Assembly (NCBI GenBank): GCA_023511995.1
Contig: JAIMAL010000008.1
Location: 1 to 64,000 of the forward strand
DNA: 64,000 bases
Source: Burkholderiales bacterium
GTDB lineage: Bacteria > Pseudomonadota > Gammaproteobacteria > Burkholderiales > Thiobacteraceae
Direction: 5' to 3'
Made by a program: the position numbers and the translations under genes
In this document: positions 1 through 4,446 of the stretch, in pieces
Numbering within the stretch: the stretch's first letter is position 1
Layout: the number at the start of each line of letters is the position of its first letter
The notes under the pieces: generated by a model
Told to the model about the DNA's origin: nothing
Seen by the model: only the letters and a program-made list of their open reading frames with translations
Databases searched by the model: none

Positions 1-51
1 TGATGGGGCAAAATGCTCGCACATTCTGACCCACCTACCCGTTAATCAAAA

Positions 52-678
52 TTGCACTTCAAACTTGAATCCGCGAGGTTTTTTGCACCGGCTGAAAGCA
101 CGACCCTGGCCACCCCCCACGAACTGTCCGAATTTCTCAAATCCGTGGAACGGCGCGCCTACAAACAGGCGCAGTTCGCCGTGGGCGACGGTCATCTCGC
201 TCTGGACCTGGTGCAGGAGGCCATGCTCAAGCTGGTGGCGCGTTACGCCGATAAGCCTGTTGAGGAGTTGCCGCTTCTTTTCCAGCGCATCTTGCAGAAC
301 GCCATCCGCGACCATTATCGCCGGCAAAAGGTGCGTAACCTCTGGGTCACCCTCTTTTCCGGCCTGACGCCAAAAGAGAGCGAGGCGGAGCATGACCCGC
401 TGGAAACCCTGGAGGCCGCCGGCGACGGCCTGGAGGCCGTAGGGGCCAACCCGGCCACCAGCCTGGAACGGGCGCAAACCCTGGCGGCCATCGAGGAGGC
501 GTTGCAAAGATTACCGCTTCGTCAACGTCAGGCCTTCCTCCTGCGTTATTGGGAAGGACTGGACGTGGAAGAGACGGCCAAGGTCATGGGGTGCTCGGCA
601 GGCAGCGTGAAAACCCATTGTTCCCGCGCCGCCCACGCCCTGGCCCAGGCCCTGAAGGCAAAAGGAATCGAGCCATGA
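52..678 (+). CDS. RNA polymerase sigma factor, ECF/sigma-70 family
   Basis: A 208-residue sigma factor that would direct RNA polymerase to a small regulon. Region 2 spans about residues 25-95 (it includes LVQEAMLKLVARYAD and the DHYRRQK end) and region 4, a helix-turn-helix, about residues 148-200 (LPLRQRQAFLLRYWEGLDVE, then SVKTHCSRA). A 50-residue linker joins them, as in ECF factors without region 3. The start is TTG at 52: an in-frame TAA at 43-45 rules out anything upstream, and the next alternatives cut into region 2. The stop overlaps the next gene's ATG (ATGA), so the two are coupled. This sigma/DUF3619/DUF3106 order recurs in betaproteobacteria. The family is clear; the regulon is unknown. 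Confidence 0.9.
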   Translation: MHFKLESARFFAPAESTTLATPHELSEFLKSVERRAYKQAQFAVGDGHLALDLVQEAMLKLVARYADKPVEELPLLFQRILQNAIRDHYRRQKVRNLWVTLFSGLTPKESEAEHDPLETLEAAGDGLEAVGANPATSLERAQTLAAIEEALQRLPLRQRQAFLLRYWEGLDVEETAKVMGCSAGSVKTHCSRAAHALAQALKAKGIEP

Positions 679-1052
679 ATGAAAGCGAGTTGGGACGCAG
701 AATCCGCGACCATCTGAACCTTGGCCTGCGTCACCTGGACCGCGAGGTCCTGCGCCGTCTGGAGGATGCGCGCCGCAGCGCCCTTGGCGCCCTCGAGGCC
801 CAGCCGGCCCACGCGCCTGCCTGGCAATGGGCCGGCGGCCCCCACGGAGGCGGTGGCGGCCATACGGTGGTCCGCCGCTGGCTGTGGCTTGCCATGTTCG
901 TCGCCCTTTTGGGGGGCGCCCTCTACTGGCAGCAGCAGATGACCTTGCAGGAAGAGGACGTGGATGCTGCGCTGCTTGCCGACGAGCTGCCCCTGGATGC
1001 GTACCTCGACCACGGCTTCCAAGCATGGCTCGAACGCGCCTCCCAGCGCTGA
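675..1052 (+). CDS. DUF3619-like single-pass membrane protein, possible anti-sigma partner
   Basis: A 125-residue protein starting at the ATG that overlaps the sigma factor stop. About 70 charged N-terminal residues precede one transmembrane segment near residues 74-92 (WLWLAMFVALLGGALYW), followed by about 33 residues presumably in the periplasm. Size and position match DUF3619, commonly encoded directly after this sigma factor. A cytoplasmic head, one TM helix and a short periplasmic tail, translationally coupled to an ECF gene, is the arrangement of many anti-sigma factors. I see no recognisable zinc-binding (ZAS) motif, so the anti-sigma role is inference from topology and context. Confidence 0.75.
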   Translation: MNESELGRRIRDHLNLGLRHLDREVLRRLEDARRSALGALEAQPAHAPAWQWAGGPHGGGGGHTVVRRWLWLAMFVALLGGALYWQQQMTLQEEDVDAALLADELPLDAYLDHGFQAWLERASQR

Positions 1053-1594
1053 TCGCGGGATTTTTGAGCGGCCTGGTGTACGCTGCGGGCGGCCCCCTGC
1101 CGCCGGCACACCCCCCTTCCCCACCCCCTGCCCAGCCCCAGGCCCCCGCACCGCAAACGCCTGCCCAGAAGCCGCCCGCCCAGCCGGCGGCGCCTGCCGC
1201 GGCAACGCGCAGCAAGTCCGCCCCCGCCTGGCATCAGCTCAGCCCCGCCCAGCGCCAGATCCTCGCCCCCCTGGCCGCCCAGTGGGACCACCTGCCCGAA
1301 CGGCAGCGCAGACACCTGCTCCTCGTCGCCCAGAAATATCCCAAAATGACCCCCGTGGAACAGCAGCGGGTGCGGGAAAGGCTCGCCGAATGGGCGCGGC
1401 TGACACCGGAGCAACGGGAGCTGGCGCGCCAGCGCTACAAGAAGCTCAAATCCCTGCCACCGGAAAAACACGAAGAGGTCAAGCGCCAGTGGCAGCAGTA
1501 TCAGACGCAGAAACAGGCCCCCGGGAGCGAGGAACAGGCCTCACCCCCACCCTATGTTTACGGGGGCGGAGAAGAGGAGTCGTCCCCGCCTTAA
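1025..1594 (+). CDS. DUF3106-like secreted helical-repeat protein
   Basis: A 189-residue protein with a short N-terminal signal-like segment (LPALIAGFLSGLVYAAGG), then a Pro/Ala-rich linker to about residue 65, then a helical part. Residues 72-161 are five exactly phased 18-residue repeats opening with LSPAQR, LPERQR, MTPVEQ, LTPEQR and LPPEKH. ATG 1025 overlaps the 3' end of the upstream gene by 28 bp; the longer frame upstream lies inside that gene and is not needed. It is the third gene of the sigma operon and matches DUF3106 in composition and position. LTPEQR-type helical repeats resemble the LTxxQ style of periplasmic stress sensors (Spy/CpxP, CnrX); that functional parallel is inference. 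Confidence 0.8.
   Translation: MARTRLPALIAGFLSGLVYAAGGPLPPAHPPSPPPAQPQAPAPQTPAQKPPAQPAAPAAATRSKSAPAWHQLSPAQRQILAPLAAQWDHLPERQRRHLLLVAQKYPKMTPVEQQRVRERLAEWARLTPEQRELARQRYKKLKSLPPEKHEEVKRQWQQYQTQKQAPGSEEQASPPPYVYGGGEEESSPP
1238..1507 (+). repeat. Five 18-residue (54-bp) helical repeats inside the DUF3106-like gene
   Basis: Residues 72-161 divide into five consecutive 18-residue units with no gaps. Each begins [L/M]-[S/P/T]-[P/E] and most carry an aromatic residue at position 16 (W, Y, W, L, Y). The repeat is seen at protein level; the DNA copies have diverged. Confidence 0.8.
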
Positions 1595-1600
1595 GCCATC

Positions 1601-1710
1601 ATCCCCGATTTGTCATGCGGCGGGCCGCCTCCTTCGCTTGGCCTTTCGCCAAGTCAAATGCCCTCTGCCTCCCTTCCGGCCTGCCCGCGCCCCAATGACA
1701 AATCCGGGAT
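1601..1710. repeat. Long imperfect inverted repeat between convergent genes
   Basis: The left arm ATCCCCGATTTGTCAT (1601-1616) pairs with the right arm ATGACAAATCCGGGAT (1695-1710), 15 of 16 positions matching. Between them is a perfect small hairpin, CTTGGC-CTTTC-GCCAAG (1637-1653). The right arm touches the stop codon of the DUF2173 gene. There is no T-run, so it is not a classical terminator; a two-way termination structure or a small palindromic element are both possible. Confidence 0.6.
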
Positions 1711-2042
1711 CATTCGTGGGCGATTTCGTCCAGTGTTTCCATCACCTGATTGATGGAGGCAGCCTTGTTTTCCAGCATCGCCACCACATTGCCGATGCTG
1801 CAGACCGTCAGCCGATCCCCCCGCACGATCCAGCCCCGCGACGGAGTCCAGCCGCTCATCTGGGAAAAGAGGGAAAAGACATCGGTGTTGCCAGAAATCA
1901 TGCGCCGGTACCAATGGGCGAAGCGGGCAAGATTGCTCAGCATCTCGTCGGGGATGACGCCCAGGCCCTCAATGATGCTCCCGTCATCCTGAAAACGGCA
2001 GACGGCGATCACGCCGTCCAGCACCAGCAAGCGTTTCAGCAT
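1710..2042 (-). CDS. DUF2173 family protein, copy 1
   Basis: A 110-residue cytoplasmic protein of unknown function, the last of three tandem DUF2173 genes. It starts at the ATG of MLKRLLVLDG, just after a G-rich ribosome-binding site (AAGGGGGGGCG); the frame upstream runs into the previous gene. It carries the family's conserved block GWIVRGDRLTVCSIGN and an earlier Cys-Arg pair (AVCRF). DUF2173 proteins are often seen in sulfur-oxidising proteobacteria, but no biochemical role can be read from the sequence. Ten bases separate it from the stop of copy 2, so they are co-transcribed. Confidence 0.8.
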   Translation of the reverse strand: MLKRLLVLDGVIAVCRFQDDGSIIEGLGVIPDEMLSNLARFAHWYRRMISGNTDVFSLFSQMSGWTPSRGWIVRGDRLTVCSIGNVVAMLENKAASINQVMETLDEIAHE

Positions 2043-2052
2043 CGCCCCCCCT

Positions 2053-2397
2053 TCACCGTCCCAGCTCACCGAGGGCGGCAAAGGCCGCTTCGTAATCCGC
2101 GTCCCGGTTGCGCACCACGACGCCAAAATTGCCATTCACCACCGCCGACCAGTCGAGTCCCACCAGGGAAAAGCCCTGCAATGGCTCGAAACCCGTCTGG
2201 CCGGTCAGCGCCTCCCAGCCGCGTGCCTCCAGCGTGGCCACGGCCAGGTTGGCGACACAGGTATGGGCGAGCAGATCCAGCACCTGCGGGGTGAGTTCGC
2301 TGCCTTCCCGGATCTGGTGGGCGATGAGGTCACCCTTGTCGCTGTACTGGAAGGCGGCCATGGCGCCCGGCACTTGCATCAGACGGTCGAGATTCAT
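2053..2397 (-). CDS. DUF2173 family protein, copy 2 (divergent)
   Basis: A 114-residue paralogue of its neighbours, starting MNLDRLMQVPGAM behind an AGGAG site. The N-terminal half (MQVPGAMAAFQYSDKGD) aligns well with copy 3 (MQIPGVIAAGEYAYRGD). The family's signature block is changed: GFSLVGLDWSAVVNGN replaces GWIVRG-x2-LxVCxxGN, losing the Arg and Cys. It is the middle gene of the set, 36 bp after copy 3. Loss of the signature residues suggests a partner subunit with a changed function; that is inference. Confidence 0.75.
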   Translation of the reverse strand: MNLDRLMQVPGAMAAFQYSDKGDLIAHQIREGSELTPQVLDLLAHTCVANLAVATLEARGWEALTGQTGFEPLQGFSLVGLDWSAVVNGNFGVVVRNRDADYEAAFAALGELGR

Positions 2398-2433
2398 CTA
2401 TGACTCCTAAAACAAATGGCGACTTGCCGTGGA

Positions 2434-2841
2434 TCAGTAGAGTTTCTCGTTCACATCGCCGCCGATCTTGGCGTACATGTAAACGAGGGGGTTTTCTTCG
2501 ATGTCGCCCACCTTGGCGCGCATGATGGTCATCACGTCATTGAGCAGACCCGGCGTGTTCTGGCAGAAGCAGAAGATGTTCCCCACCACGCACACGGAGA
2601 GGTCCCGCCCGCGCACGATCCAGCCCTGCAGCGGCTTGCAGCCGCAGTCCTCGGGCGCGAAGGAGGAAAACAGTTCCACCTGCATGTTCATGCTGAGGGT
2701 ATTGGCCCGACACAGGATGGAGGCCATGCGGGCATATTCGGGGGAGAGGTTGCCCTCGTAGGAATAGCGGTCGCCGCGGTAGGCGTATTCGCCGGCGGCG
2801 ATGACGCCCGGAATCTGCATGAGCTGCGAGATGATGCGCAT
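2434..2841 (-). CDS. DUF2173 family protein, copy 3 (first in operon)
   Basis: A 135-residue DUF2173 protein and the promoter-proximal gene of the set, with a GGGAGG ribosome-binding site before ATG. It keeps the signature GWIVRGRDLSVCVVGN and has additional cysteines (SILCRAN, EDCGCKP, FCFCQN), making it the most Cys-rich copy. The C-terminus is about 20 residues longer than in copy 1 (ending near YMYAKIGGDVNEKLY). It is divergent from the RDD gene, with 81 bp between them. The Cys content would allow a metal or thiol role, which is untested. Confidence 0.8.
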   Translation of the reverse strand: MRIISQLMQIPGVIAAGEYAYRGDRYSYEGNLSPEYARMASILCRANTLSMNMQVELFSSFAPEDCGCKPLQGWIVRGRDLSVCVVGNIFCFCQNTPGLLNDVMTIMRAKVGDIEENPLVYMYAKIGGDVNEKLY

Positions 2842-2922
2842 TGACTTCCTCCCATGCTGCCGCTACCGTCGCAGACTGTCGTCCACGCCGATGGCACGTT
2901 TTGACCAGTTGGTTTTAGTCCC

Positions 2923-3354
2923 ATGATAGAGACCGCGACAGAATGTCGCAATCCCCCGCCGGGCCTCCTGCGCCGCCTGGCCGCCATGCTCTACGAAGCG
3001 CTGCTGGTGCTGGCCGTGCTCTTCGTCGCCGCCTTTGTTTACCTTCTTTTCCGCAATCCGCAGGCGCCGGGCGGCATGGCCTTCTTCCGCCTTTATCTCG
3101 CCTTGGTCGTTGCCGGCTATTTCCTCTGGTTCTGGACCCATGGCGGGCAGACCCTGGCCATGAAGACCTGGCATCTGCGCCTCGTCGGCACTGAGGGGGG
3201 CAGCGTCACCTGGCGGCGGGCCTGCCTGCGCCTTGTGCTGGCGGCGGCGGGACTTCTTGCCTTCGGCTTCGGCATCTGGTGGGCCCTGTGGGACCGGGAA
3301 GGGCAGTTCCTCCACGACCGGCTGGCGGGCACGCGCCTGATCCGCAGCCGCTAG
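2923..3354 (+). CDS. RDD family membrane protein
   Basis: A 143-residue inner-membrane protein. The RDD residues are visible: the Arg of LLRRLAAMLYE near the start and the paired Asp region HDRLAGTRLI at the end. About three hydrophobic segments (LLVLAVLFVAAFVYLLF, LYLALVVAGYFLWFW, LAAAGLLAFGFGIWWAL) fit the family. RDD proteins are proposed transporters or ion exchangers. In many betaproteobacteria an RDD gene directly follows DUF3106; here the DUF2173 block on the opposite strand separates them. Confidence 0.85.
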   Translation: MIETATECRNPPPGLLRRLAAMLYEALLVLAVLFVAAFVYLLFRNPQAPGGMAFFRLYLALVVAGYFLWFWTHGGQTLAMKTWHLRLVGTEGGSVTWRRACLRLVLAAAGLLAFGFGIWWALWDREGQFLHDRLAGTRLIRSR

Positions 3355-3372
3355 CCCCAAGGGGGATGAGCC

Positions 3373-4446
3373 TCAGCGACGCTCCACCCAGGCCATCATG
3401 GCCAAAGCGAGCCCCAGGAAAAACAACGTGGGGAGCACGGCGGCAAGCACCGGCGGCCAGTCCTGCAATAGCCCCAGGTTGGCAAACACCCGGTTCAGGA
3501 GGTGGAAAAAAAGGCCCACCATGATGCCGCCGAAGACGCGGCCACCCACTCCGGTAAGCCGCGGCTGGTAAAGGGCGAAGGGTACCGCCAGCAGAATCAT
3601 CACCAGCACCGCCAGCGGATAGACGAACTTGCTCCAGAGGGCGATTTCGTAGCGCGCGGTCCGCTGATTGTTCTCCTCGAGGTGGCGCACGTAGGCGAAG
3701 AGATTCACCGCCGACATCTGCTCGGGCACCACGAGGAGGACACTGAGCATGTCGGGATTGAGCACGGAGGTCCAGTGGGCCTCGCGCAGATGGCTCACCC
3801 GCACCGAAGCCCCCTCGAAATGGGTCTGTTCCACCTCGAGCAGACGCCAGTGGGAATCCCGGATATGCCGGCCTTCCGCGGCGTAGCTGATGGTCCGCAG
3901 GTTATAGGCCGGGTCGAATTCGTAGATTCTCACGCCCATCAGCGTGGAATCCGGCAACACCTCGCGCACGTTGACGAAACTTGAGCCGTCCTTGAGCCAC
4001 AATCCCGAGCGGAACTCCTGGGCAACCACGGTATTCATGGCCCGCGTGCGCAATTGGGCCGCCATGCGCTCGCTGTGGGGGACGATGAACTCGCCGACGA
4101 CGAAGCCCAGCAGGACGAAGAGCAATCCCACCCGCAGCCCGGCCAGCGCGATGCGGTAGATGGAAAAACCCGACGCCCGCATCACCGTCAGCTCCGAGTG
4201 ATGCGCAAGTTGGCCCAAAGCATAGAGGGAGCCGATCAGGGCGGCGATGGGAAAGAGCTCATAGACGTGGCCCGGCGTGAGCAGGAGCACGTGGGCAATG
4301 ATCTGCGGCAGACCATAATTGCCCTTGCCGAGGGAAGGCAGCTCGTTGATGAGATCGAAAAAGGCGAACAGCACCACCAGGGCGGAGAAGACAAGCAGGG
4401 TGCCGCCGAGGATTTCGTGGGCGAGGTAGCGGTCGAGGACTTTCAC
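3373..4446 (-). CDS. lptG: LPS export ABC transporter permease LptG
   Basis: A 357-residue permease of the LptB2FGC complex, which extracts lipopolysaccharide from the inner membrane and passes it to the periplasmic bridge. Three N-terminal TM helices (first at FSALVVLFAFFDL), a large periplasmic beta-jellyroll domain (about residues 140-260, including LKDGSSFVNVREV) and three C-terminal TM helices give the family architecture. The start is GTG at 4446, overlapping the lptF stop as GTGA; the longer frame upstream lies inside lptF. Ends convergent with the RDD gene, 18 bp apart. Confidence 0.93.
   Translation of the reverse strand: MKVLDRYLAHEILGGTLLVFSALVVLFAFFDLINELPSLGKGNYGLPQIIAHVLLLTPGHVYELFPIAALIGSLYALGQLAHHSELTVMRASGFSIYRIALAGLRVGLLFVLLGFVVGEFIVPHSERMAAQLRTRAMNTVVAQEFRSGLWLKDGSSFVNVREVLPDSTLMGVRIYEFDPAYNLRTISYAAEGRHIRDSHWRLLEVEQTHFEGASVRVSHLREAHWTSVLNPDMLSVLLVVPEQMSAVNLFAYVRHLEENNQRTARYEIALWSKFVYPLAVLVMILLAVPFALYQPRLTGVGGRVFGGIMVGLFFHLLNRVFANLGLLQDWPPVLAAVLPTLFFLGLALAMMAWVERR

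Follow-up and report, generated by a model that had tools for sequence, protein, structure and literature searches.

A widespread Burkholderiales operon that probably encodes a sigma factor, a DUF3619 membrane anti-sigma factor and a DUF3106 periplasmic partner

The window analysed here, a stretch of 64,000 nt, carries near its start three consecutive plus-strand genes, for an ECF sigma factor, a DUF3619 protein and a DUF3106 protein (Table 1). Base 1 of the window is base 1 of its contig (C8), and most of the region upstream of the operon is therefore missing. As the initial annotation had noted, the DUF3619 gene overlaps the sigma gene in an ATGA, its ATG (675) running over the TGA stop (676-678); the start of the DUF3106 gene in turn overlaps the end of the DUF3619 gene by 28 nt. 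The sigma protein passes NF006550/PRK09047, whose cut-off is 173 bits, also matches Pfam Sigma70_r2 and Sigma70_r4_2, and is the only protein of the operon with clear relatives in a sequence search of the PDB. The DUF3619 protein (PF12279, 96.6 bits against a gathering score of 22.2) has the anatomy that had been predicted for it, a head of roughly 70 residues and one membrane helix: about 68 residues precede a helix near residues 69-87 and about 38 follow it. The third protein was expected to be secreted and to carry LTPEQR-like repeats, and it does show a signal-like N-terminus and repeats of the LTPEQR type, with a PF11304 match of 105.6 bits against a gathering score of 24.3. Downstream, three DUF2173 genes lie in a row on the minus strand (1710-2841) between the DUF3106 gene and an RDD gene. 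Models of defence systems gave no match at E≤0.01.

Table 1. Features of the operon and its downstream neighbour in the window
Feature	Position	Strand	Basis
ECF sigma factor gene	106..678	+	NF006550, 260.1 bits; likely start at the CTG of the conserved start column (longest ORF: TTG at 52)
DUF3619 gene, proposed membrane anti-sigma factor	675..1052	+	PF12279, E=2e-27; ATGA overlap
DUF3619 residues 1-42, predicted cytoplasmic two-helix head, proposed sigma-binding part	675..800	+	AlphaFold2 helices 3-19 and 23-42; L14, L29 and R33 invariant in 61 sequences
DUF3619 residues 69-87, predicted membrane helix	879..935	+	Hydrophobic stretch; AlphaFold2 helix 63-103; charge rule (225 loci)
DUF3619 residues 95-120, predicted periplasmic motif D..LL.DDLP..AY.D..F..WL, proposed DUF3106 docking site	957..1034	+	Conserved; decayed in 4/5 genomes without DUF3106
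DUF3106 gene, proposed periplasmic partner or sensor	1025..1594	+	PF11304, E=2.3e-30; signal-like N-terminus
RDD membrane protein gene, usual downstream neighbour	2923..3354	+	PF06271, E=4.9e-20; same strand downstream in 80/123 loci

Each family was sought in one and the same sample of 300 genomes of the order (E≤0.001 for DUF3619 and DUF3106, E≤1e-30 for sigma), and DUF3619 was found in 217, the sigma factor in 218 and DUF3106 in 219. Sigma and DUF3619 occur together in 215 genomes and are jointly missing from 80, with 3 genomes holding sigma only and 2 holding DUF3619 only; for sigma and DUF3106 the figures are 212 with both, 75 with neither, 6 with sigma only and 7 with DUF3106 only. Most of the sigma/DUF3619 singletons dissolve on inspection. 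Among the genomes with sigma only (G001, G004, G096), G001 and G096 hold divergent DUF3619 proteins (L184, L187) and in G004 a divergent protein of 106 residues stands where DUF3619 would be; among those with DUF3619 only (G123, G216), the sigma gene of G216 is missing since the stretch upstream of DUF3619 reads N, and G123 is a genome 85% complete with a DUF3619 match at E=0.001. For DUF3106, G277 could not be scored because its contig ends, and three genomes (G043, G245, G261) have weak matches without the operon. About seven in ten of the genomes sampled from the order thus carry the trio, and the claim of a common betaproteobacterial operon stands, the named loci being mostly betaproteobacterial. 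In a sample of the phylum, DUF3619 was found in 17 of 299 genomes, 15 of them from this order. The gene order sigma, DUF3619, DUF3106 on one strand is seen in 182/182 sequences holding all three genes (another 6 of the 188 sequences had an incomplete set and were dropped, and some genomes are present more than once). Of 232 distinct loci, 197 have the DUF3619 reading frame at -1 where the sigma gene stops. Judged from these sequence counts, the association of the three families, in one gene order throughout the taxonomic order, is far beyond chance.

The start of the sigma gene should probably be moved from TTG at 52 to CTG at 106. The TTG merely gives the longest ORF, and the conserved start column falls on the CTG at 106-108; no clear ribosome-binding site precedes this CTG in the window, and TTG at 52 is a possible start for this copy of the gene. 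Among 196 loci with the N-terminal motif (34 of 230 loci without it were dropped), the start column holds CTG in 130, ATG in 49, TTG in 13 and GTG in 4, and dereplicating at 80% sigma identity leaves CTG 69, ATG 23, TTG 8 and GTG 4. No leucine codon besides CTG and TTG occurs in this column, whereas all six leucine codons are used for the leucine at codon 7. Of the 130 CTG loci, 64 have no ATG, GTG or TTG between the in-frame upstream stop and the CTG, and 52 of these 64 have none in codons 2-12 either. An agGG block lies 9-12 nt 5' of the CTG in 87 dereplicated CTG loci. By contrast, the DUF3619 start that overlaps the sigma stop is ATG in 169 loci, GTG in 26 and CTG in 1. The Gallionella, Nitrosovibrio and Dechloromonas examples among the named loci have CTG, and those of Burkholderia and Cupriavidus have ATG. 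The sigma gene therefore seems, from codon usage at this column, to have a conserved CUG start in most of the lineages sampled. It would be unusual for a regulator to retain a CUG start in much of an order. The start of this gene will be placed wrongly by gene callers restricted to ATG, GTG and TTG.

The ortholog of this sigma factor in Cupriavidus metallidurans may, as a guess, be rpoR (Rmet_0910). Context is given in the part of PMC11647585 available to us. The available part of PMC6085468 lists Xanthomonas rpoE2 (XC_3383) with RSc2078 as a homolog; this may be the intact relative. Under the conditions reported there, no virulence role was seen for sigma-70 factors except RpoE1, RpoD and RpoH. 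The large ECF classification may already give this sigma factor a group number. Pfam still lists both DUF3619 and DUF3106 as of 'unknown function', as the initial annotation had stated, and neither name was mentioned in the literature searched, supplements being outside its scope; the portions available of PMC2864759, PMC7563307, PMC9045368 and PMC11647595 held nothing useful on the operon's terms.

Conservation in DUF3619 is found at both ends of the protein (alignments of 33 and 61 sequences), with a head motif L..RL..AR..AL and the tail motif given in Table 1. In the AlphaFold2 model (mean pLDDT 75.7, pTM 0.30), the two head helices and the long helix that spans the hydrophobic stretch are followed by a short helix at residues 115-124. 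Against Pfam, the window protein matches only PF12279 at E≤1, with no known anti-sigma domain and no PF17524; the class I zinc anti-sigma motif HxxxCxxC is absent, and the protein has no cysteine. We used a set of 225 loci, 7 of 232 distinct loci having been removed by gene and length filters, and in 214 of them DUF3619 has a 19-residue stretch with a mean hydropathy of at least 1.4. Lysine and arginine are more frequent before the helix than after it in 164 of the 225 loci, with 49 ties and 12 loci showing the reverse, these orientation calls, like the signal calls for DUF3106, being simple counts rather than the output of a trained predictor. By the charge rule, the head of DUF3619 should therefore be cytoplasmic. 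The initial annotation had named a periplasmic N-terminus as one observation that would speak against its proposal; the charges instead point to an N-in protein.

The five genomes with sigma and a DUF3619 protein but without a DUF3106 match (G004, G063, G183, G274 and G299, the DUF3619 of G004 being recognised by its place only) bear on the function of the tail. Where DUF3106 is present (225 loci), no locus scores under 7.4 bits against a model of the tail motif. The tail falls below the lowest of the 225 in four of the five genomes without DUF3106: it scores 3.4 bits in G274 and -1.9 bits in G299 and gives no hit in G004 and G063. Three of these four keep a typical head (G063 41.8, G274 44.3 and G299 52.7 bits, the median of the 225 being 46.8), and the head of G004 is low (15.9 bits). 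G183 is the opposite case, with the tail kept (32.9 bits), a low head (8.5 bits) and DUF3106 missing. G063, G183 and G274 share a genus, leaving about three independent cases. The pattern of decay supports, at the level of sequence, a docking of DUF3106 on the DUF3619 tail and a separate role for the head. In two of the genomes the lost tail is replaced, by a long acidic stretch in G063 and by a Pro/Ala-rich stretch in G299 (L360, L361).

The DUF3106 protein is modelled by AlphaFold2 as helices only (pLDDT 77.5, pTM 0.56), and a signal-like segment was counted in 200 of the 225 loci. The model had no match in the PDB at E≤0.001, with a best Z of 3.7 among the 23 chains compared.

Regarding expression, the initial annotation had suggested a search for a shared promoter motif upstream of the operon in relatives, and the ECF-type motif that a self-regulated sigma factor might have was not found in these regions. 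The motif that is shared, TTTGcTAnnAT, occurs in 66 of 119 dereplicated upstream regions (score above 5) with no conserved -35, and the width-14 motif has a log-likelihood of 316, compared with 46 for one shuffled set. This form is that of the extended -10 promoter of the housekeeping sigma factor, and the shared motif looks like such a promoter. In the window itself, which is cut by the contig end, a consensus scan of positions 1-3400 gave no promoter for the operon. Another upstream motif, of the TTGACC-17-TA...T type, was rejected as operon promoter: it lies on the opposite strand and faces the divergent upstream genes. In 9 of 14 named loci these genes are opposite-strand ORFs resembling ilvB, ilvH or ilvC, called by eye from the start sequences of the ORFs, with other genes in 4 and an unclear case in 1. 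On the downstream side, an RDD gene is found on the same strand in 80 of the 123 loci with room for it, often directly after DUF3106, compared with the intervening DUF2173 genes of the window.

Similar sets recur outside the order. DUF3106 was found in 24 of 249 genomes of a phylum sample, 13 of them outside the order, and 10 of these 13 matches are strong (E≤6.3e-15). At 9 of the 10 strong loci DUF3106 is closely preceded on its strand by a sigma gene and, between the two, a small ORF; these sigma proteins score 129 to 178 bits against the model built here, and one, from another class, passes the NF006550 cut-off (217 bits). Six of the nine intervening ORFs have a membrane stretch above the threshold used, and 4 of 6 that were scanned match PF12279 at E≤0.041, none of them at its cut-off. 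At one locus (L301) DUF3106 is accompanied by a remnant of the small ORF, and the sigma gene is absent.

In one genome (G387), a second set has sigma-like and DUF3619-like parts in a single ORF (L305). The N-terminal part has an NF006550 match at E=2.6e-6, well under the cut-off, and the best Pfam match of the fused protein is PhyR_sigma-like (E=0.0045, under the cut-off of that model). Among 60 genomes of the same family, 47 match the fusion and 39 align across both parts, defined as a single alignment with a query start of at most 17 and an end of at least 264. At the 25 fusion loci fetched (L329-L353), a DUF3106-like ORF is next in 17, lies in the same ORF in 5 and was not found in 3; the five triple fusions (L336, L337, L340, L346, L350) come from four genera, with modest matches for the DUF3106-like part (E 3e-7 to 8e-4, set of 25). 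The fusions tie the three products together and place DUF3106 across the membrane from the sigma part. Residues conserved at 97% or more in the intact sigma factors are kept in 210 of 500 cells of section 2 and 160 of 600 of section 4 in the fused parts, which being degenerate may be misaligned in places, compared with 147 of 180 and 178 of 216 in the nine intact sigma factors from outside the order. The recognition-helix residues V166, K167, T168 and H169 are kept in 0 of 25 fused parts. Since these and the other conserved residues are mostly lost, the fused part looks like a pseudo-sigma factor. Intact sets coexist with fusions in three genomes (G387, G391, G329). In another three (G134, G235, G265; L362, L363, L364), a 248-residue ORF with a DUF3619-like tail replaces sigma and DUF3619 and is followed by DUF3106 and RDD; it matches sigma only weakly (L364, E=0.0018 in a set of two; L362, E=0.75), and it is perhaps a second pseudo-sigma fusion.

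The layout resembles several known systems. CnrH/CnrY/CnrX of C. metallidurans (class II, PF17524), to which the initial annotation had compared it, likewise has an ECF sigma factor, a one-helix membrane protein with a short cytoplasmic head and a periplasmic helical partner, although the gene order is cnrY, cnrX, cnrH rather than sigma, DUF3619, DUF3106. CnrY holds CnrH with two helices (PMC4598750, in the part available; anti-sigma classes are treated in that of PMC7406223), and the model of the DUF3619 head also consists of two helices. While this likeness of layout and model stands, homology of the head to CnrY does not: CnrY residues 1-45 score 0.9 bits against a model of the DUF3619 head, and 731 of 5000 shuffles were as good. 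The small ORF at L295 matches Pfam CnrY at E=0.36 only, and few genomes of the order have PF17524 (8 of 249 at E≤0.01, 2 of them above cut-off). A CnrX-like fold is possible for DUF3106, though no such match was listed in the PDB comparison (E≤0.001; 23 chains). A membrane-bound pseudo-sigma would recall the mimicry of PhyR/NepR, which also involves a sigma-like domain without promoter recognition. PhyR, however, is a soluble response regulator, unlike the fused sigma-like part here, which is joined to a membrane helix. In RpoE/RseA/RseB, too, a sigma factor, a membrane anti-sigma factor and a periplasmic partner are encoded together (PMC8103513, available part), but DUF3619 has no known Pfam anti-sigma domain and DUF3106 is modelled as helices only. 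Sigma and membrane anti-sigma factor in one chain are described for IutY (ECF243) and ECF48/52/53 in the part of PMC8999054 available to us; IutY is an active sigma factor freed by proteolysis, whereas the fusions here have mostly lost the conserved sigma residues and are built with DUF3619- and DUF3106-like parts.

We consider it likely that the operon encodes a sigma factor, a membrane anti-sigma factor and a periplasmic partner. This reading draws on the co-inheritance and fixed order of the genes, the ATGA overlap, the N-in charges and the separate end motifs of DUF3619, the recurrence outside the order, the natural fusions and the decay of the tail where DUF3106 is missing; the last two indicate that the three products may work as a unit. 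The initial proposal of a sigma/anti-sigma/sensor set is thereby upheld in part, as to the common operon, the orientation and the unit; homology to CnrY is not supported, and an ECF-type promoter was not seen in the upstream regions compared. We infer that the two-helix cytoplasmic head of DUF3619 would bind and inhibit the sigma factor, holding it at the inner membrane, and that the C-terminal periplasmic motif would dock DUF3106, which as a sensor would read an envelope condition, or else would stabilise the inhibitor. A change outside would then loosen the head and free the sigma factor, and the CTG start together with the translational overlap may keep its level below that of the inhibitor. 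Running counter to this scheme are the coupling analysis reported below, the lack of CnrY homology above shuffles and of a recognised ECF-type self-promoter, G183, with its tail kept and head degraded in the absence of DUF3106, the low head of G004, and L301, where DUF3106 occurs without a sigma gene. If it is true, DUF3619 and DUF3106 gain a role and a widespread envelope signalling system can be named.

Other arrangements of the same parts can be imagined. DUF3106 could be an output, or a periplasmic chaperone riding in the operon, with DUF3619 alone regulating the sigma factor; the five genomes that keep sigma and a DUF3619 or DUF3619-like protein without DUF3106 would fit this, as would the lack of a recognised sensor fold, yet the DUF3619 tail is decayed in four of those five and 5 of the 25 fusion loci have a DUF3106-like part within the chain, which makes a mere rider unlikely. 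Co-inheritance, overlap and fusions, moreover, show a partnership and not its sign, so that DUF3619 might be a membrane tether or a positive co-factor, a carrier delivering the sigma factor and switched by DUF3106, rather than an inhibitor, and G004, G063, G274 and G299 do keep sigma and the head without DUF3106. We think this quite unlikely: the fused sigma-like parts have lost their promoter-reading residues, which a holding role fits better, and most of the known single-helix partners whose genes adjoin those of ECF sigma factors are inhibitors. Such partners are reviewed in PMC8999054 and PMC4598750, in the parts available.

That the genes are mere neighbours under a shared promoter, with no physical contact, is very improbable given their co-inheritance with the same gaps, the recurrence outside the order and the fusions, even though direct coupling analysis (225 paired loci, Neff 165 for all three proteins) did not rise above its control. 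The top coupling between sigma and DUF3106, the control pair that should not touch, has a z of 9.1 and exceeds that between sigma and DUF3619 (8.3), and no contact is claimed. The split of the couplings by membrane side is weak, with Fisher p values of 0.08, 0.13, 0.03, 0.002 and 0.0009 for the top 20, 50, 100, 200 and 400 on cells that are not independent; for this split the circular-shift null gave 8/120.

Within the sigma/anti-sigma reading that we prefer, one may speculate further on the fusions. According to this speculation, which we regard as possible but rather doubtful, the family became at least once, and perhaps twice, a membrane-bound pseudo-sigma decoy, that is, a sigma-like part that has lost its promoter-reading residues and is joined to its DUF3619-like inhibitor, in some species also to DUF3106. 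The decoy would tune the intact set of the same cell, in which the CUG start would throttle the sigma factor and the ATGA overlap keep the inhibitor in excess. As sigma mimics, membrane-bound pseudo-sigma fusions would, if true, be of an unusual kind. The sigma/anti-sigma family has no name in the literature searched, and what is brought out here is its apparently conserved CTG start and these putative fusions.

Two minor observations concern DUF3106. The E. coli control genome has a sub-cut-off match to it, which is perhaps, as a guess, a distant periplasmic protein of the LTXXQ type. Directly before DUF3106, three loci (L297, L300, L301) encode a further small secreted protein whose motif resembles (D/E)LL/FEFIADW...DGQWVEP.
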